IMG/VR virus record: IMGVR_UViG_3300030388_001728
Span: 1 to 23,072 of that record
Strand: one strand, 5' to 3'
Origin: a virus
Length of the DNA: 23,072 nt
A program made the translations under genes and the position numbers. The notes under the pieces were generated by a model. That model made no database searches. It saw only the letters and a list, made by a program, of their open reading frames with translations, and was not told the origin of the DNA. This document shows, one piece after another, positions 3,233 through 18,988 of this stretch (positions are counted from its first letter, which is position 1; each line of letters begins with the position of its first letter).

Positions 3233-4110
3233 TGGTTGAAGAGTATATTAATAGAGAAGCCCCAGATATAGAAGCTAGGAAACTAGGTCTTATAGATTCG
3301 GCTAAAGCTTTAACAGAACAAGGATATGTTCTTCCTGATTATGTTTTAGCAGGGCTTACACCAGAACAACAACAAGCTTTTAAACTAGCTCAGTCAGGTA
3401 TTGGTGCTTATCAACCTTATTTAAAAGCGGCAGGAGATGCCACAACACAAGGTCAAAATCTTTTACAAGGAACAATGGGAGCTCCAACACAAGCTCAATT
3501 AGATTCCTACATGAATCCTTTTCAACAACAAGTTATTGATGCAACCATGTCAGAGCTTGATAAACGAGGACAAATGCAAGCTAATCAATTAGCTGGTGAT
3601 GCTGTGAGAGGCGGTGTGTTTGGTGGCTCGCGTTACGGGGTTCAACAAGCAGAACTATCAGGACAACAACAAGATGCAAGAGCTGCAGCTTTAGCAGGGT
3701 TAAATTCTCAAAACTTTGGACAAGCACAAGCAGGAGTAGCTAATCAAATGGAAAGACAACGATTAGGTGGTCTAGGGATTGCAGGTTTAGGACAACAACA
3801 ATCACAATTAGGGGGACAAGCGCAAGCCTTAATGGGTCAAGATATTAATTCTCTTTTAGGTATTGGTGGAATGCAACAACAATATGCTCAACAACAAGAA
3901 GATATTAGAAGACAGAATTTAATGCAACCAATGTTGCAACCATATCAACAGTTAGGTTTTTATGGTGATATATTACAAGGAGCTCCAACATCATCGCAAA
4001 TGATTAATACATCTCAATCAATGGGACCAAGTCCAATGCAACAAGCTATTGGAACTGGTATTGGTGCAATGACAGGTATTGCAGGCCTTAAAAAATTAGG
4101 AGTAGTATAA
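3232..4110 (+). CDS. Gln/Gly-rich predicted internal virion protein
   Basis: This encodes 292 residues. It starts at an ATG overlapping the previous stop (TAATG), with AGGAGAGG upstream. From about residue 40 it is dominated by Gln, Ala and Gly, for example TPEQQQAFKLAQSG, GLGQQQSQLGGQAQALMGQ and GGMQQQYAQQQEDIRR, and it is probably largely helical. The segment YMNPFQQQVIDATMSELDKR followed by GGVFGGSRYGVQQAE matches a pattern I know from phage virion proteins found beside tape-measure or ejection genes. The C terminus is small and hydrophobic (GTGIGAMTGIAGLKKLGVV), possibly membrane-active. There is no enzyme motif. Its tight coupling to both neighbours argues for a stoichiometric structural role with them. 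Confidence 0.65.
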   Translation: MVEEYINREAPDIEARKLGLIDSAKALTEQGYVLPDYVLAGLTPEQQQAFKLAQSGIGAYQPYLKAAGDATTQGQNLLQGTMGAPTQAQLDSYMNPFQQQVIDATMSELDKRGQMQANQLAGDAVRGGVFGGSRYGVQQAELSGQQQDARAAALAGLNSQNFGQAQAGVANQMERQRLGGLGIAGLGQQQSQLGGQAQALMGQDINSLLGIGGMQQQYAQQQEDIRRQNLMQPMLQPYQQLGFYGDILQGAPTSSQMINTSQSMGPSPMQQAIGTGIGAMTGIAGLKKLGVV

Positions 4111-7100
4111 TGAGTGCTTTAAATAGATCAATGTTTAAAAAACAAATTGTTAATCGTGAAGAAGGCTCGCCTCTAGAAGGAGAAGATTCATCAGGGGGTA
4201 TTGGGCAAGCTCTTTTACAATCTATTAAAAATTTTGCTACTAATGGTTTTACTATGAATGATACGGAGATGTTAGATGAAAGCAAACAATTAATTGATCA
4301 AGGAAGGGATCATGTTCTTAATGAGTTTGAATTTAGTCTTTTATATCCTGGTGTAAGTTTTGATTCTGTTACAATAGAAGAACGAACTATTGGAGCCAAT
4401 AGTAAGGATATGAATACATTAATAGAAAAAGAAGCACAATTACGAGAACAAGAACCAGATATTAGTGAGGGAGAAGAAGGTTATCAATATGATTTTGATA
4501 TAGATGGTGAAAATAAAAGTTTTGGTTTTGATGAAAAATTAGCTCCTTCAGGTGTAGAATCTTTTAGAGAAAAATTAGGTATTACTGCTGATCCTAACTC
4601 CGTTGTTCGTGAAGGAGAGTTAATGAACATGATGGATCCAAACTCCGTTGTTCGTGAAGGAGAGTTAATGAACATGATGGATCCAAACTCCGTTGTTCGT
4701 GAAAGCGAAACACGATTTAGACAAATGGGATCTCCTCCTCAAGGGGAAATGATAGAAGAACAAGTTGATGTAGAAAATGTTGGTATTATGGATGGCTTTA
4801 GTGGTGGGGAAGAAGAAACTGCTGCAGCTGTATTAGAAGAAGGGGAAAGATCTAAAAAAGAAATTGATGATGCAAGTACTTATGACGAATTGATGAAATC
4901 GGTTCGAGGTGATGATTTAAGTGAAGAGGAACGCCGTCAAGAATTAGCTTCTGTTGTAGGAGAAAAAGATGCAGAAGAAACACCTGATAGTGTATTAGCT
5001 CTTGTTCAACCTGTTTTACAAATGTTAAATGAAGACACGGCTAATACCGGTATTGGCCAAATAGAAGAAGGTCAAGAAATGGCTAATGTTATGCCTACGC
5101 AAGCAGGAGCAACAGATGCAATGGCTATGATGATGCCTGAACAACCTGTTGGTGTAGCTGATGGTGGTTATATGAGTTCTTTTCCCAATCAAAATATGGG
5201 AACACAATCATTAACAGCAAGTGATAACATAGATGACCGCATTATGCAGAATCTACAATTTGAAAGAATGGCTCCAGGAATGATGGGCTATGCTGAAGGA
5301 GGCTTAGTTCAACCGTACGCCTTAGGAGGGGACGTACGCCCCATCCCAAAGTACTCTAATGGTACTAGTTCTTTAGGAGCAACTATTAATGATACCACAA
5401 CTAGTAACAGTCTTTTAGATAATACTCTTTTAGATGATGAAGTAGTGGAGGAAGCTGAACCATATGATCCAACTACTACAGATTTTTTAACACAAATATT
5501 TTCTCCAGAAGCAGGACAAAGTGCCTTAAAAACAAAATATGATACTAATTATAAATTATTTTCTGAAATTTTAGGTGGTCAAGGACCAAGTAAAGATGAA
5601 ATGATTGGAGAAATATTAACAAGTGTTGTAAGTCCTTTAGCTTTTAAATATGCTCAAGGTGAGGACATTCAAGAAGTATTAGCTGCGGGAACACAAGCAA
5701 TTGGAAAAATATCACAGAAATATTCTGCTGGGAAAAGAAAATCTGAAAGTGAAATTAAATCAGCAGCATTAGCTCAAGCTTTAAAACCTGCTCCAGATGA
5801 TCCTTTGGTAGCAGTATATTTAAAAGATGATCCATCAACTCTTGATGTAGACGAAAGTATATCACAAATACAAATTACTACATCACAGTTAAAAGCAGAT
5901 GCACTAAGACCTATAGGAGAAAAGTTATATACAAATAATTCTACAGCTATGGCTCTTGCAGAGTTAGCAAAAACACAAGGTGAAACTGATAAAACAACTA
6001 CAGAAAATGCTATACTAGATGTTGAATTATATTATGCAGATGAATATGCAAGTTTAGGAATAAAAGAACAAAAACAATTAGTTAAAAGCATAGAGATTAA
6101 AAATAAAATTGATAATGCTATTGCTAGTAATAAACCAGGAGAGCTAGAAGCAGCTCTTAAATCTGTTAATCTTGATAACATTGCTAAGTCAATAACGAAT
6201 GAAACTTTACGTCCTAAACTAGAAATAGAATTAGAAACTTTATCTGTTAATCTTGATCAAGAAATTCAAAATTTAAAAATTAAAGAAATTGAAGCTAACT
6301 TTACACAAGAAGAAAAAGAATTAGGTGTAGAAGAAAGACAAGGAATTATTGACGAAAGGCTTCAGACTATTGACTTTAATAAAAACAATAACATTCTTTT
6401 ACTAGAGCAAAAAAATGCTGAGATAGATAATATTATTCTTACAGGTAAAAATATAGATCTTGAAAATGAATATAAAGTTCTTCAAAATCAATTTGCTGAA
6501 GAGGAATTTAGTTTAGAAAATGAAGCTCTTCTTCTTGAGAATATTAATAAACGATTGAATAATACTAAGCTTTCTATAGGAAATGCATACTTATCAACAG
6601 AAAAGAAACTAGGTATTGATAAATTAAAATTAGATATGGAAATGATAAATGAAAATATTTCAGGGCAAATGTTGCAGAATGAAAAAATTCTTTTAGATTT
6701 AAATAACTATGATGAAAAAACTTTCTTAGAATTTCAAAAGCAAAGAAGAGAAATTGAAAAACTTGAATATGATTTGGCTAATCCTCCAAAAGATTGGTCA
6801 CAAATAAAAGTCCAAGCAGAGATGCGTAATAAATGGAACTTGTCTCCTATGACTGTAAACATGAGAGATAAACAAGGATTTATGGAAAATCTTGTTAGTA
6901 ATGCAGGTGAAAATACAGGTGCAGGTGATTTAAGCTTTATTTTCCAATACATGAAAATGCTTGATCCTCGTTCCGTTGTTCGTGAAGGAGAATTTGAAAC
7001 AGCTAAAAAAACTGGAGGCCTCCCCGCTAGTGTTTGGGCAGCATATGAAGGAATTAAAAATGGTAGACTTTTATCTGCTCAAGTAAAAGCTGATTTCCTT

Positions 7101-7364
7101 AGTGCAGCATCAAAAATGTATATGCAAGAAGTAGGTAATTATAATACTGAGTTAGGAACGTATAGAGACATTGCTACTTCTAATGGATTAAATTCAGAAT
7201 TAGCAATTCCTTCAATGAATTTAAATCAAGAACTCATTCAGCAATTAAGTAATGTAAATAAAATAAATGATTCAATAGATATTATTGAAAACTTTAATTT
7301 AGAAGATAGTGTTCTTCCTAATGTAAGTGACGGAAGATTAAAAATAAAAATTCCAAGTTTATAA
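4110..7364 (+). CDS. Large predicted internal virion protein with SVVREGE repeats
   Basis: This encodes 1084 residues, starting at TAATG with AGGAG upstream. The N-terminal third is acidic and low in complexity. It carries three tandem DPNSVVREGELMNMM-type units (residues 161-201), then Met/Gln-rich loops with ADGGYMSSF and YAEGGLVQPYALGG. Residues about 440-600 look more globular. Residues about 640-900 are rich in Glu, Lys, Leu, Ile and Asn and predicted to form long coiled coils (for example EEKELGVEERQGIIDERLQ). The C-terminal domain starts near LDPRSVVREGEFETAKKTGG (from residue 951), a pattern I recognise from many phage internal proteins, continuing with NGRLLSAQVKADFLSAASK. It probably works as a long helical internal or ejected protein; a tape-measure role is the main alternative. 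The function is inferred from composition and neighbours. Confidence 0.65.
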   Translation: MSALNRSMFKKQIVNREEGSPLEGEDSSGGIGQALLQSIKNFATNGFTMNDTEMLDESKQLIDQGRDHVLNEFEFSLLYPGVSFDSVTIEERTIGANSKDMNTLIEKEAQLREQEPDISEGEEGYQYDFDIDGENKSFGFDEKLAPSGVESFREKLGITADPNSVVREGELMNMMDPNSVVREGELMNMMDPNSVVRESETRFRQMGSPPQGEMIEEQVDVENVGIMDGFSGGEEETAAAVLEEGERSKKEIDDASTYDELMKSVRGDDLSEEERRQELASVVGEKDAEETPDSVLALVQPVLQMLNEDTANTGIGQIEEGQEMANVMPTQAGATDAMAMMMPEQPVGVADGGYMSSFPNQNMGTQSLTASDNIDDRIMQNLQFERMAPGMMGYAEGGLVQPYALGGDVRPIPKYSNGTSSLGATINDTTTSNSLLDNTLLDDEVVEEAEPYDPTTTDFLTQIFSPEAGQSALKTKYDTNYKLFSEILGGQGPSKDEMIGEILTSVVSPLAFKYAQGEDIQEVLAAGTQAIGKISQKYSAGKRKSESEIKSAALAQALKPAPDDPLVAVYLKDDPSTLDVDESISQIQITTSQLKADALRPIGEKLYTNNSTAMALAELAKTQGETDKTTTENAILDVELYYADEYASLGIKEQKQLVKSIEIKNKIDNAIASNKPGELEAALKSVNLDNIAKSITNETLRPKLEIELETLSVNLDQEIQNLKIKEIEANFTQEEKELGVEERQGIIDERLQTIDFNKNNNILLLEQKNAEIDNIILTGKNIDLENEYKVLQNQFAEEEFSLENEALLLENINKRLNNTKLSIGNAYLSTEKKLGIDKLKLDMEMINENISGQMLQNEKILLDLNNYDEKTFLEFQKQRREIEKLEYDLANPPKDWSQIKVQAEMRNKWNLSPMTVNMRDKQGFMENLVSNAGENTGAGDLSFIFQYMKMLDPRSVVREGEFETAKKTGGLPASVWAAYEGIKNGRLLSAQVKADFLSAASKMYMQEVGNYNTELGTYRDIATSNGLNSELAIPSMNLNQELIQQLSNVNKINDSIDIIENFNLEDSVLPNVSDGRLKIKIPSL
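4590..4711 (+). repeat. 45-bp in-frame tandem repeat (2 full + 1 partial unit)
   Basis: Units start at 4590, 4635 and 4680. The first two are full 45-bp copies encoding DPNSVVREGELMNMM and differ by one base (gatcct versus gatcca). The third keeps about 25 bases and then diverges into DPNSVVRESETRF. The near-identity, synonymous sites included, indicates recent duplication. The reading frame is preserved. Confidence 0.9.
6963..7000 (+). repeat. Distant fourth copy of the SVVREGE repeat core
   Basis: Within the same gene, about 2.3 kb downstream of the tandem array, the DNA encodes DPRSVVREGEFET. A 20-base core, TCCGTTGTTCGTGAAGGAGA, is identical to that in units 1 and 2 of the array at 4590. 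The codon-level match shows common descent or gene conversion rather than independent evolution of the peptide motif. Confidence 0.85.
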
Positions 7365-11354: not shown

Positions 11355-11556
11355 GGATTTTAATTTAAGAAATGTGGTATGGTTCTCCATGATCCTTGTG
11401 AGTGCCGGGATTGTTTATGGTATGTTGTCTCAAAAAGTAATAGCTTTAGAAACAAAACAATCTCAATTAGAAATGATAATACTCCAAGACATACCAGAAA
11501 TAAAAGAACGCGTGATACGACTTGAAGTATTATTAGAACAAATTATAGAGAGTTAA
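11347..11556 (+). CDS. Holin-like small membrane/coiled-coil protein
   Basis: I choose the TTG at 11347 (GGAG 8 bases upstream), giving 69 residues and an 8-base overlap with the previous gene. The ATG at 11320 is an alternative nine codons earlier, with a poorer ribosome site. The protein has a short charged N terminus (MDKDFNLRN) and one transmembrane helix at about residues 9-26 (VVWFSMILVSAGIVYGML). A heptad-rich coiled coil follows (KVIALETKQSQLEMII...IRLEVLLEQIIES). This single-span plus coiled-coil layout is like XhlA-type or other accessory lysis proteins, and the position at the end of the late block fits. No endolysin is visible beside it, so a lysis role is tentative; a membrane-anchored virion or spanin-like factor is possible. 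Confidence 0.6.
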   Translation: MDKDFNLRNVVWFSMILVSAGIVYGMLSQKVIALETKQSQLEMIILQDIPEIKERVIRLEVLLEQIIES

Positions 11557-14065: not shown

Positions 14066-15552
14066 ATCAAATAACCGTCTGCTGTTGATGCTTCTACAAT
14101 ATATAAATTTTCTTTAGCTCTAGTAAAAGCCACATAAAAAACTCTATGCTCATCATCAGGATTTTTAACATAAGCTCTATAAACTAATCTACCAAGATCC
14201 AATAAGACAACAACATTATCACACTCACCACCTTTAGCTTGATGTATAGTCGATACACGGATTCTTGGTTCACCTTTTATATCTTCTCCTATTCGCTCTA
14301 ATCTTCTTAAATAAGCAATATCAAACTCAGTAATCTTATCCATTACCTCATGCCATTCTCCATCTACAAGAAGACCATGATCTTTTTTCAAATCTTCTAA
14401 GTTAAATAAAGATTCTTCATCTTTTCCTTTAAATGTTTTACCTCCTCTTTTAATACCTGTACCTGATTTAATTTTATTATATAAATTTTTTACCTCTAAT
14501 AAAGATATAGGAGTCCCATTTTTTAAACGTCGCCAAGTATCAATAGCATCTAAGGTTGAAGGAACAACGGGTCGATGTTCTCCTCTTCCATACCATAAAC
14601 CACTATCTTTTAAAAAAGACTCTATTTTTTCATTTCTAATTTTTTTTGTTCTACCTAATATTAACCAATTACCGCTAGATAAATCCACATGTTTTAAGTC
14701 AGCTACTTGATTAATTTTTCCTTCCTCCTCTTTAGGTTTCCAAACTTTTTCTCTTCTGTTTCTAACTTTGGAAATAATACGATTAGCTAATTCATAAACA
14801 GTTTTTGGACAACGATAAGACTTATTAAGCACTGTAACATTTCCTTCTAAGTTAATAAAACGATCAACATCAGCACCTGACCAACGAAAAATAGCTTGAT
14901 CATCATCTCCAGCTATATAAGTTTGTTTACTATTTTTAATTAATTTATCTACCATATTATATTGTATTCGAGGCATATCTTGTGCTTCATCGATAAAAAG
15001 AACATCAAACTGTGTACTAAACGTGTCAGTAGTGTAATTGACAATCATATCCGTAAAATCAAATAAATTATTTTCTTTCTTATAATCAATAATGCATCGA
15101 TTAAGATAATCTAATTTAGGCCAATTAATTGTATGATCCCCACTATTCCATGCATCTTCCAAAGAAATATCTTGTAATCTAGACATATTAATTAAATTAA
15201 CAAATTTATGATTAGAATTAGAATAAATTGAATCGTCATTTGTATCAAAAACTAAATCAAAACCTATAAGACTTGATAATTCTTTCCAATGTTTAGATTT
15301 CATTAAATTATTTCTATCAACAGGGAGGCCTCTATAGGCAAAACTATGTAGGGTTCTAAAGTGAACTAAATCATCTTTACTTGCTTGAAATTTATCACGA
15401 GCTCTATCTCTAGCTTCATAAGCAGCTTTCTTAGAAAATGAAAAAAATCCAATTTTATCCCAAGAAACACCTTGTTCTTTTTTCTGCCTACAAATATCTA
15501 AAAGCTTAGTGGTTTTCCCTGTGCCTGGTGGTCCTAAAATTATATTAATCAT
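14062..15552 (-). CDS. UvrD/Rep-like superfamily 1 DNA helicase
   Basis: This 496-residue ATP-dependent helicase has every SF1 motif: motif I GPPGTGKTT (7-15), motif Ia FSFSKKAAYEA (38-48) and FRTLHSF (65-71), motif II DEAQD (188-192) and motif III GDDDQAIFRW (215-224). Motif IV is SYRCP (245-249), motif V STIHQAKGGE (434-443) and motif VI VAFTRAKENLYI (474-485). It is shorter than bacterial UvrD/PcrA (about 700 residues), so the accessory 1B/2B domains are reduced, as in phage enzymes such as Dda. It probably unwinds DNA during replication or recombination, moving 3'-5' if UvrD-like. It lies between primase and polymerase genes, overlapping the primase stop by 4 bases. No recognisable DnaB-type replicative helicase is present in the window. 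Confidence 0.93.
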   Translation of the reverse strand: MINIILGPPGTGKTTKLLDICRQKKEQGVSWDKIGFFSFSKKAAYEARDRARDKFQASKDDLVHFRTLHSFAYRGLPVDRNNLMKSKHWKELSSLIGFDLVFDTNDDSIYSNSNHKFVNLINMSRLQDISLEDAWNSGDHTINWPKLDYLNRCIIDYKKENNLFDFTDMIVNYTTDTFSTQFDVLFIDEAQDMPRIQYNMVDKLIKNSKQTYIAGDDDQAIFRWSGADVDRFINLEGNVTVLNKSYRCPKTVYELANRIISKVRNRREKVWKPKEEEGKINQVADLKHVDLSSGNWLILGRTKKIRNEKIESFLKDSGLWYGRGEHRPVVPSTLDAIDTWRRLKNGTPISLLEVKNLYNKIKSGTGIKRGGKTFKGKDEESLFNLEDLKKDHGLLVDGEWHEVMDKITEFDIAYLRRLERIGEDIKGEPRIRVSTIHQAKGGECDNVVVLLDLGRLVYRAYVKNPDDEHRVFYVAFTRAKENLYIVEASTADGYLI

Positions 15553-17162
15553 AAAGGTATATCCACTTCATCTATATTTTCTCCCCCTAATACTTGATCT
15601 TCTTTAGTAACCTTATTATTTTTAATATTAATTGGAACAGGAATCTCTACTAGAGATCTCTCGAAAGCAGGGATAACCCAAGCTCGTGTTTGTATTTTTC
15701 TAACTGCTACAGTTATATTTTCCCCTCCTATATCTTTTAATCGTTGGACAATCCACACACGTTGGACTTTAAAATTCTTGCTATTCTCTAACCATTTAGA
15801 TAAATCAACTAAACGAAAATATGTTGGAATAGCTTTAAAAGTAGTTTCATTCTTTTTAAATTGTTTAATATTCTCATCATCAGTAAAAGATTTTTGCATT
15901 TCTAATTCATCTATAGAAAAAGAATCTCCTCTTGATAAACAAAATTCTTTTAAATAATCTAAAAATTCTCCTACCTTAGACACATCAGAAGGAACCTCAT
16001 CTATCTTAATTTCTTCAAATAGCATAGCAACTATCTCTTCCCAATCATCGGCTTTAACTTTAGGAACATAAATTTTTAATTGTTCTCCTACCATTTTTCT
16101 AAACAATGCATGAGCATATAAAACACCTAAATCATTAAACTCTACTCTTTTATCTCCTACATTTAAAAACCAAATAGGAGGTATACTATCTAAAACTGAT
16201 AACTCGCTATAGGTTGGGTGATCAGCCGTTGAATGACCAATTCCATGTTTTCTTAATTTACATAAAGCTTTTTGACAGACAGAAGAAATAGGAGGTTCTT
16301 TACAACGATAAAAATATTTAAAGTCACCATCTGGTTTTTTCTTCCCAATTTGTTTTTGTAATGTAGTTACTTCAGTAGCATTTAAAGGAGGATCCATATA
16401 ATTCCTGTTATAGGCCTCAAGTAAATCTTCCCAATCATCAGGATTAGCCTTACGATAAAAAACTCCAATATTAAGTAATCCATTATTTCTTGTTCCTTCG
16501 GGGAAACCTTGTGTAGTTAATACTTGTAGACATGGGGGACCATCCTTTATGACATCTTGTTCTACCTTGATTGCGATTTTGCTAATATCATCACAAACAT
16601 ATTTGTCGTATAAGTCAAAGAACTCGTCAAGAGAAGCACCCTCACCATTGTCAAGAAACGCGTACCGTGTCTCACCATGATAAGGAAGGTTCAGCCATGA
16701 ACCTGAGTCTTTTTCATTGGCTAGTTCTGTTTGTTTAGGGAAAACTTCTGTATTTGCATATCCGATGTAAGAAGCAATCTCTTTAAGTTTTTGTTGGAAG
16801 ATAGCTGCTGATTGTGGATTTTTGGAAAAAAGAAAAATATGTGCACCAAAAGATTTGGATGAACACATTATTAATGGTAATTTATATTTTCGTATTTTGG
16901 ATAATATTTTTTTGTGATCTAGGGGGTATTCGTCAATATCAATACATCCCCAAGTACAAGTGGCATCGTCACGAATGGGAACTATGCCAAGAGCAGGCAT
17001 CTTTCCATCAAGATGATCTAAATACATTTGCAATGTAGGTGGTTCGTGTTTCGTGAACATTTTACCATCTCGTTTTCCATTCAGCTTAGTTTCTGAATAA
17101 CGATACTCTCCATGAACCCGGTCAAGACCTGTAAATATATGTTTAAATTTTTCTGCTTTCAT
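15549..17162 (-). CDS. Archaeo-eukaryotic-type primase (TOTE-like AEP domain)
   Basis: This 537-residue protein is a DNA primase of the AEP superfamily. The catalytic core shows motif I DIDE (75-78, after WGC), motif II SSKSFGAHIF (101-110, the S-x-H type) and the EVFPKQ (139-144) ... GSWLNLPY (154-161) pair typical of the primase domain described from TOTE conflict systems. A PEGTRNNGLLNIGV segment (221-234) matches the helical C-terminal primase extension. Three cysteines (C287, C296, C301) in RCKEPPISSVCQKALC could hold zinc or an iron-sulphur cluster. The rest looks like a winged-helix or regulatory region. The ATG has no Shine-Dalgarno upstream, only an AU-rich leader after a strong hairpin. 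It presumably lays primers for the Pol I two genes downstream. Motif evidence for the AEP core is good; priming in vivo is inferred. Confidence 0.88.
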   Translation of the reverse strand: MKAEKFKHIFTGLDRVHGEYRYSETKLNGKRDGKMFTKHEPPTLQMYLDHLDGKMPALGIVPIRDDATCTWGCIDIDEYPLDHKKILSKIRKYKLPLIMCSSKSFGAHIFLFSKNPQSAAIFQQKLKEIASYIGYANTEVFPKQTELANEKDSGSWLNLPYHGETRYAFLDNGEGASLDEFFDLYDKYVCDDISKIAIKVEQDVIKDGPPCLQVLTTQGFPEGTRNNGLLNIGVFYRKANPDDWEDLLEAYNRNYMDPPLNATEVTTLQKQIGKKKPDGDFKYFYRCKEPPISSVCQKALCKLRKHGIGHSTADHPTYSELSVLDSIPPIWFLNVGDKRVEFNDLGVLYAHALFRKMVGEQLKIYVPKVKADDWEEIVAMLFEEIKIDEVPSDVSKVGEFLDYLKEFCLSRGDSFSIDELEMQKSFTDDENIKQFKKNETTFKAIPTYFRLVDLSKWLENSKNFKVQRVWIVQRLKDIGGENITVAVRKIQTRAWVIPAFERSLVEIPVPINIKNNKVTKEDQVLGGENIDEVDIPL

Positions 17163-17178
17163 AAATATAAATAATAAC

Positions 17179-17233
17179 TAGGGGCGAAGTGAAACAACAT
17201 TTCTAACAGGTTGTTAGATTAATTTCGCCCCTA
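17179..17233 (-). promoter_or_regulatory. GC-rich nested hairpin in the replication operon, before the primase gene
   Basis: In the 98-base gap between the primase start and the possible ssDNA-binding gene, TAGGGGCGAA (17179-17188) pairs perfectly with TTCGCCCCTA (17224-17233). Inside it TCTAACA (17202-17208) pairs with TGTTAGA (17212-17218) across a 3-base loop. The outer stem is the most GC-rich stretch for hundreds of bases. On the - strand it is followed by an AU-rich run, not a clean U-tract, and then the primase ATG. A leaky terminator, an RNA-processing site or a translational control element are all possible. Confidence 0.7.
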
Positions 17234-17260
17234 TTCTAGAAAATTAGAAATAGTAAGTAA

Positions 17261-18085
17261 CTAAGATCCTAAAACGTTAGTATCCACATTTGGAGTAACA
17301 TCTTTGATATCTTCATTCGCATCATTTAAAGCCTCTGGTGTTGGATCAATTGATCCAGAAGTCACAAGTTCATGAAAGTTTTTGGCTTCCTCAACTAAAA
17401 AAGATGGGTTCTTTAAATCATTAACAGATTTTTCTAAAACAATTTTCCATCCCCACCAATCATTCTTTTTATTTTGCTCTTGTATTCCTTCCATTCGGTA
17501 TACATTTGCAAACATAGGAAGAGTAAATAATGACCCATTTGATTGTTGAATTTTCTGATTCATCATCATTGTATTCCAATAACGTGATTTTTTATATTGA
17601 GTCTTTTGCATAATGATCTGACATCTTTCAAAAGTTCCATCTTTATTTAATCGTAAAACAAAGTACTCCGCTGTTCTTACAATATAAGTAGGACTCATTG
17701 CACCATCAATCATATAATGATCTTCACCATCGGCACCTCTAGTCAAAGGAGGAATGTCTTTTGGTTCATAAATTTTTACTGGAGCTCCTGTTCCTTCACC
17801 TAAAGGGGACCATTCAACACCTCTAACACGAAATGCACATGGTATAACACTTACACCTTTGTAAAAATCTTTAGTAACAGAATTAAAAATATCACCTTGG
17901 TCAAGTCCTTCTACAAACTTTGCATTTGATTTTTTAACTTCTGGAGTCTGGGAACTAGCAATCTTTAAAAATGGTATTGCCATTTCTTGTGCATCAACAT
18001 TCTCAAAACCTGCATTAGCAAACTTTGAAAAATCAATAACATTGGTCGATATTTCGCTTTTATTTTTTTTTGTTACATCGTTCAT
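17261..18085 (-). CDS. Conserved phage replication-module protein, possible ssDNA-binding protein
   Basis: This encodes 274 residues, with AGGAAA before the ATG and a 2-base gap from the gene upstream. The core pattern is AIPFLKIASSQTPEVKKSN near residues 38-56, GDIFNSVT, VSVIPCAFRVRGVEW, then YFVLRLNKDG and a W-rich part (KNDWWGWKIVLEKS). The 'PFL+hhQ..SPEV..G.....GD+hN' beginning is familiar from phage proteins encoded next to DNA polymerase and primase, some annotated as single-stranded DNA-binding. The acidic tail with DANEDIKDVT resembles the acidic C termini of SSBs such as T7 gp2.5. An OB fold cannot be confirmed by eye. The gene is followed by the nested hairpin, so its transcript could be processed or terminated there to make more of this protein than of the primase. 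Confidence 0.6.
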   Translation of the reverse strand: MNDVTKKNKSEISTNVIDFSKFANAGFENVDAQEMAIPFLKIASSQTPEVKKSNAKFVEGLDQGDIFNSVTKDFYKGVSVIPCAFRVRGVEWSPLGEGTGAPVKIYEPKDIPPLTRGADGEDHYMIDGAMSPTYIVRTAEYFVLRLNKDGTFERCQIIMQKTQYKKSRYWNTMMMNQKIQQSNGSLFTLPMFANVYRMEGIQEQNKKNDWWGWKIVLEKSVNDLKNPSFLVEEAKNFHELVTSGSIDPTPEALNDANEDIKDVTPNVDTNVLGS

Positions 18086-18651: not shown

Positions 18652-18988
18652 AATTATTCCTTTCATTAATGTCTATCTGTATGGGGTAGTATGTATAAGT
18701 ACGTCGATCATATTTTAAAACTTTATATTTTCCTCGATTAATATCTGCTGCTATTGAACAAGCTAATCCAATCATTGATGGATCACCTATTAATAACAAA
18801 TAATCGTTGTCATTAAAGTCTTTTAATATGGTTTTTGCCTTACGCACCGCAGGAGCTGGGGACAACATTATCTGTTTTCCTTCTTCAAAGAGTGGCACTA
18901 GTTTCCCATAACCTTGGGCACTAATAACATTAAACTTTGACACCTCTTGGATGACATACACATTACCTTTGTTTTCTAAGTCTTTCAT
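18635..18988 (-). CDS. Conserved phage protein of unknown function, first gene of the replication operon
   Basis: This encodes 117 residues and starts at 18988 about 13 bases after the -10 box of the leftward promoter, so its leader is very short and has only a weak AGAAAG ribosome site. The pattern is VYVIQEVSKFNVISAQGYG, LVPLFEEGKQIML, then DNDYLLLIGDPSMIGLACSIAADINRGKYKVLKYDR and YPIQIDI. The 'DDYLLLhGDPhhIGhAxAhAAxxNxGxhxhLKWDR' element is one I associate with many marine phage genomes. It probably forms a small alpha/beta fold, and the GDP...I..A.A...N.G element may bind a ligand or a partner. The function is unknown. As the promoter-proximal gene it is likely made early. Confidence 0.72.
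   Translation of the reverse strand: MKDLENKGNVYVIQEVSKFNVISAQGYGKLVPLFEEGKQIMLSPAPAVRKAKTILKDFNDNDYLLLIGDPSMIGLACSIAADINRGKYKVLKYDRRTYTYYPIQIDINERNNYDRES

Follow-up and report, generated by a model that had tools for sequence, protein, structure and literature searches.

A predicted hairpin kept at the 3′ end of gp34-like genes in the replication operons of marine phages and their distant relatives

Gene layout of the replication operon

The window analyzed here, i.e. the whole 23,072-nt stretch comprising positions 1 to 23,072 of the IMG/VR virus record IMGVR_UViG_3300030388_001728, contained a minus-strand operon with genes similar to those encoding Pam3_gp32, gp33 and gp34, followed by genes for a primase and other replication proteins (Table 1). 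Between the gp34-like gene (gp34 hereafter) and the primase gene was a gap of 98 bases, 17163-17260, read on the minus strand, which carried the hairpin that is the subject of this study. Two other features of the window are recorded here. A strong hairpin (-20.9 kcal/mol) at 11476-11535 was located near the meeting point of two convergent gene blocks separated by 3 nt only (11556/11560), and could be a transcript end. An ORF at 4110-7364 contained 45-base direct repeats at 4590-4724 and 6963-7007, encoding the peptide DPNSVVREGELMNMM three times in tandem and once more at a distance.

Table 1. Positions of the operon, its genes and the predicted RNA features in the window, and of the GAGA-form stem-loop in related loci
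Feature	Position	Strand	Evidence
Operon: Pam3_gp32-like, gp33-like, gp34-like, primase, UvrD-type helicase, DUF6378 protein, family A DNA polymerase	18988 to 11560	-	
Pam3_gp34-like gene	17261-18085	-	PF23977 (E=1.8e-53); PHROG 2402
AEP (TOTE-type) primase gene, first gene 3′ of the hairpin	15549-17162	-	PF22548 (E=1.1e-10); PHROG 21866 primase (E=8.9e-86)
H1, upstream 5-bp stem adjoining H2	17234-17249 (arms 17245-17249/17234-17238)	-	Folding; counterparts in relatives
H2, main hairpin, 10-bp GC-rich stem	17179-17233 (arms 17224-17233/17179-17188)	-	Fold z -4.2; covariation
Inner hairpin within the H2 loop, 7 bp, triloop ACC	17202-17218 (arms 17212-17218/17202-17208)	-	Folding
U-rich tail/leader, 16 nt, from H2 to the primase ATG	17163-17178	-	Degenerate U-tract; no Shine-Dalgarno
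GAGA-form stem-loop	L067:1830-1861; L114:1718-1749; L115:1443-1474; L118:2012-2043; L127:1161-1192; L132:3790-3821; L135:3782-3813		

Structure and stability of the gap hairpin

Folded as RNA, 17163-17260 gave -22.8 kcal/mol on the minus strand (z -4.2) and -26.2 kcal/mol on the plus strand (z -4.9), and folded as DNA it gave a z of -5.3. The two nested stems described in a first-pass annotation of the same DNA were reproduced exactly, with z about -4 to -5, and the comparison of both strands with shuffled sequence that it had proposed was equally clear, as none of 200 shuffles folded as well on either RNA strand or as DNA; a third stem, H1, had been missed. Despite only 38% GC, the gap hairpin ranked second in stability among the 60-nt stretches of the window. 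Six of the 10 base pairs of H2 were G-C, and its loop was 35 nt long. Inspection of the sequence revealed a 6-bp pairing of 17210-17215 with 17193-17198 that would compete with the inner stem and was not kept in the related locus L003, and no pseudoknot was predicted in the gap RNA.

In the record from which the window comes, the hairpin matched once, with no second copy, and it was absent from the repeat families. An Rfam scan yielded no match above the curated score in the window and none in 16 related loci, and a similarity search of phage DNA with the hairpin region was likewise negative. A ribozyme is considered unlikely, as there was no Rfam match and the core letters were not conserved.

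The outer stem is kept in close relatives with changed letters

Close relatives of gp34 were encoded at 61 IMG/VR loci, all with the primase gene downstream, and 37 distinct gap sequences were taken from loci with a gp34 identity of at least 60%. All 31 gaps that were parsed possessed a stem of 7-22 bp whose end lay 12-23 nt upstream of the primase ATG, with loops of 3-14 nt versus 35 nt in the window. The arms were diverse in sequence, including GGGGCGAA/TTCGCCCC, GGGGCATAA/TTATGCCCC, GGGGCC/GGCCCC, GGGGGC/GCCCCC and GGGCGG/CCGCCC. Compensatory changes, which the first-pass annotation had suggested looking for in related phages, were found in an alignment of 20 sequences: 95.5% of the cells of the outer stem were paired, two-sided changes numbered 14 versus 3.7 in shuffles, and the covariation score was 0.238 versus 0.106, a signal that was destroyed when the partner was slid by 1-3 columns.

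The inner 7-bp hairpin had a counterpart in L003 only (AUAACA-UUC-UGUUAU), the other close relatives having short or unrelated loops. Counterparts of H1 with changed letters were present in L002-L005 (CTCTA/TAGAG etc.) and in L029 and L033 (ACCT/AGGT). Judged from these alignments, the conserved core is the outer stem H2, and the inner hairpin is a local variant rather than a family-wide feature; the nested architecture, which had earlier been taken as the element itself, was rejected as a conserved trait, conservation being limited to the outer stem.

Two apparent rearrangements were noted in related loci. In L055 (4838-4939) and L057, the junction hairpin had grown, relative to that of L056 (2629-2691), into a perfect stem of 22 bp; the entire original hairpin seems to have been duplicated in inverted orientation. 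Between L013 (4829-4898) and L015 (4451-4521), the loop was inverted between near-identical arms (TAACCTTCCGATAG versus CTATCGGAAGATTA), as expected for template switching between the arms.

The hairpin is associated with the 3′ end of gp34 in distant relatives

With profile and named-phage searches added, 79 gp34 clusters were obtained at 90% identity, and a stem was scored when at least 6 bp, including at least 5 G-C pairs, were present within 80 nt of the stop of the upstream gene. Such a stem was present after gp34 in 72 of 78 clusters, versus 14 of 74 after gp33, 18 of 59 after gp32 and 12 of 70 after the primase gene, although the clusters are not independent and the control junctions are more often coding. 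The median MFE z was -2.9 after gp34, as compared with -0.76 (gp33), -0.85 (gp32) and +0.09 (primase). Relatives with the same gene order and no paired structure, which the first-pass annotation had named as evidence that would speak against a functional element, were therefore mostly not encountered; HTVC023P, where the gap is 5 nt only, had no hairpin after gp34, and L097 had none at the junction. In L133 and L155, with almost no gap after gp34, a 14-bp hairpin was situated in the first primase codons (CTGGAGCAG.../CTGGAACAG...).

In named phages of other lineages (Xanthomonas, Burkholderia, Pseudomonas, Serratia, Escherichia, Vibrio, Stenotrophomonas, Rhizobium, Luteibacter, Alteromonas and Pantoea), a hairpin directly followed gp34 in 15 of 15 cases, in many of them with CTTTTT or TTTTT just downstream, and that of Escherichia phage Mansfield is annotated as a terminator. 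The next gene varied: it encoded a helicase (UvrD or RecD-like) in some phages, and a spanin, an SSB or an unknown product in others. Cultured carriers of the hairpin include HTVC027P, PB1, Wifcevirus Mansfield and vB_DshS-R5C. Because the hairpin is retained where the next gene is not the primase gene, the element is best assigned, by this comparison, to the 3′ end of gp34, and the control specific to primase that had been proposed earlier is not supported. Since nearly all relatives keep the hairpin with completely different letters, comparative evidence indicates that the gap hairpin is a real RNA element.

The gp34-like product

An AlphaFold model of gp34 (pLDDT 82.6) gave weak PDB matches (best E 0.015), mainly to OB-fold proteins that act on ssDNA, i.e. 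RPA, MCM N-domains, SSB, PriB and PrgE; two viral matches were named SSB. SSBs end in acidic tails finishing in F, and the gp34 homologues of named phages possessed acidic C-terminal tails finishing in ...PF or ...F. The C-terminus in the window's clade (17261-17275) ends in VLGS, unlike the acidic, F-final tail of the named homologues, and in that clade the SSB-like tail has apparently been lost or replaced. These similarities suggest that gp34 is an ssDNA-binding, OB-type replication protein, the assignment as an SSB being probable rather than proven because Vibrio phage H1 has an annotated SSB gene directly after its gp34 homologue.

Strand preference and the GAGA form

The tetraloop comparison was based on strand-neutral Watson-Crick stems. 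Four-base loops were present in 28 clusters, of which 20 had a GNRA or UNCG loop when read as mRNA and 1 when read on the opposite strand (sign test, p=2e-5). As the stable tetraloops favor the mRNA strand 20:1, the element is judged from its loops to act as mRNA and not as a DNA palindrome. G-U over A-C asymmetry across all stems was 24 versus 16, which was not significant.

A distant clade of about 22 phages, including the cultured pelagiphage HTVC027P, shared a 32-nt stem-loop at the gp34-primase junction (Table 1), consisting of an 8-10 bp stem, a 3x3 purine-rich internal loop, and a 2-bp stem that is closed by a nearly fixed G-U pair and capped by a GAGA tetraloop. Its covariation was 0.724 versus 0.182 in shuffles, with two-sided changes in 10 of 12 pairs. 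A covariance model of this form matched at the gp34-primase junction only, among the loci searched, and gave one match per record in eight whole records; it did not match the window, which is without the GAGA form, and the stem-loop had no Rfam match. Most members of the clade also contained a small tandem hairpin between the gp34 stop and the 32-nt stem-loop.

U-tract, spacing and primase leader

The tail after H2 in the window, GTTATTATTTATATT, had a T-score of 2.8, and the hairpin scored -31 by a terminator rule; this poor score resulted from the 35-nt loop and the broken U-tract. By the same rule, L034, L045, L053 and L058, with a stem followed by T5-7, scored +46 to +56 (T-score 4.8-5.5), that is, as strong, and are predicted to carry canonical intrinsic terminators. 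In the 6 nt after the stem, at least four T were found in 20 of 72 clusters and at most one in 23 of 72. The share of T was 41% after the stem versus 27% in the next 10 nt, and was not higher, across the 72 clusters, than that of A at the mirror positions before the stem (37%). The conserved feature thus appears to be the hairpin and not the U-tract, and termination is unlikely to be the common function of all forms, since many clusters are T-poor and T does not exceed the mirror A.

The distance from the stem to the next ATG had a median of 18 nt (IQR 15-20; 54 clusters), leaving little room for a promoter, so that the downstream genes are presumably reached by read-through. Promoter-like sites were not above chance (53 versus 58.8 in shuffles), and a promoter in the gap was rejected on this ground and because the candidate at 17193-17164 would start transcription inside the primase ORF. 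Read-through of bacterial terminators is described as common (cited in PMC10450193).

The primase leader, GTTATTATTTATATTT, was without a Shine-Dalgarno-like word, as the first-pass annotation had observed, but this is not unique in the window, the genes starting at 18666, 19073 and 23003 being the same; ten of the window's nearest clusters also had no Shine-Dalgarno before the primase gene. The most plausible reason for the absence is the U-rich tail, which fills the 16-nt leader and leaves no room. A search for T7-type RNA polymerase in ten relatives gave no match, and neither did the control set. The hairpin-bearing relative HTVC027P, for which public RNA-seq from infected Pelagibacter HTCC1062 is available (PRJNA1253180), is reported to be transcribed by the host RNA polymerase (PMC12753301), and thus the ordinary terminator rules are relevant. 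In its genome (MN698241), gp03 is the gp34 homologue and gp04 the primase gene, with the stem-loop between them at 1830-1861.

Proposed function

We propose, with roughly even confidence, that the element is an intercistronic hairpin at the 3′ end of the gp34 message, functioning as a leaky terminator, an mRNA cap or both, and setting gp34 above primase. On transcription of gp34, the GC-rich stem would form in the nascent RNA, and together with the U-rich stretch would stop a fraction of the polymerases in the manner of a leaky intrinsic terminator, while the same stem would cap the resulting or processed 3′ end against 3′-to-5′ exonucleases. Read-through transcripts would supply primase, whose start lies 16 nt after the stem behind an AU-only leader without Shine-Dalgarno. 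The net outcome would be much gp34 and little primase from one promoter, with partial termination where the tail is U-rich and 3′-end protection in all forms; how strongly polymerases stop, how well the end is protected and what protein ratio follows are expectations of this model. The earlier suggestion of ratio-setting at the junction of the SSB-like and primase genes holds insofar as there is a real RNA structure there that would be consistent with partial termination or 3′-end stabilization.

The T7 terminator after gene 10 is a leaky intrinsic terminator inside an operon. Shared with such terminators are the GC-rich stem after a highly needed gene, the presumed read-through to a co-directional gene and, in close relatives, a full T-tract; the window differs in its interrupted U-tract and 35-nt loop, and many relatives are without a U-tract. 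In the cip-cel operon of Clostridium cellulolyticum, an example of selective RNA processing and stabilization, 3′-terminal stem-loops set the transcript ratios within the operon (PMC4423207). The element described here similarly closes the upstream gene of an operon with a stem-loop, where a processing or stabilization stem-loop belongs, and is expected to set a ratio, but it involves phage replication genes instead of enzyme subunits.

That precedent also serves the closest alternative, pure 3′-end protection or processing, in which the polycistronic RNA would be cut near the stem and the hairpin would shield the gp34 part with no termination. The retention of the hairpin where the U-tract is often absent, the preference for stable GNRA/UNCG tetraloops and the poor terminator score of the window agree with it, yet canonical T5-7 tails, which occur in several close relatives as well as in many named phages, do not, and we consider it possible, at somewhat better than one chance in four. 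REP/BIME palindromes stabilize upstream mRNA. An intergenic palindrome able to block 3′-to-5′ decay is common to both cases; however, REP/BIME elements occur in many copies, and this class was rejected since the gap hairpin is single copy in the genome, belongs to no repeated family and had one match in the window's record.

A protein-binding RNA site is rather unlikely. Here gp34 or another phage or host factor would bind the hairpin, resulting in autoregulation of gp34 or control of translation of the next gene. The hairpin travels with gp34 and not with primase, one large clade has a conserved GAGA apex, 3x3 internal loop and near-fixed G-U pair once per genome, and the small tandem hairpin H1 adjoins the main stem. 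Against this, the letters of stem and loop turn over completely between clades, the GAGA motif is absent from the window, and the position is 3′ of gp34 and not at its start. The T4 gp32 autoregulatory leader pseudoknot resembles the element in linking RNA structure to the gene of an ssDNA-binding protein, a probable one in the case of gp34, but the T4 structure is in the 5′ leader, whereas here the structure is at the gp34 3′ end and has no predicted pseudoknot. It is similarly improbable that a specific factor, perhaps gp34 itself, recognizes a family-wide 3′ element, so that the supply of SSB would act in feedback on the mRNA encoding it or on the gene that follows; if so, the most elaborate version of the element would be the GAGA-capped, 3x3-loop form of the HTVC027P-like phages.

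There is little to recommend a translation insulator, a stem keeping ribosomes and upstream structure off the primase start so that the leader stays open and AU-rich. The tight stem-ATG distance of 15-20 nt, just beyond the ribosome footprint, and the hairpin in the first primase codons of the gap-less L133 and L155 would fit, but the spacing may be the mere minimum room for a start region, and the hairpin likewise precedes unrelated genes that have ribosome sites themselves. Least probable is a DNA element, i.e. a replication origin (the alternative raised in the first-pass annotation), a cruciform or a site for a dimeric DNA-binding protein, for although the arms are perfectly palindromic, lie within a replication module and fold well as DNA, such an element should have no strand preference, and the mRNA-strand bias of the tetraloops, the conserved G-U pair of the GAGA clade, the position almost always immediately 3′ of gp34 and the unconserved arm letters all speak against it.

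The quantities of ssDNA-binding protein and primase that a phage replication operon must deliver are very unequal, and the leaky terminator or mRNA cap favored here would give abundant marine phages a concrete means of controlling gene dosage. As far as comparison of genomes can tell, devices of this kind are already known, and this one is unusually well supported by its evolution: the structural RNA is shared by pelagiphages, uncultured marine phages and relatives of PB1, Wifcevirus and Pseudanabaena phages, with its letters wholly changed.
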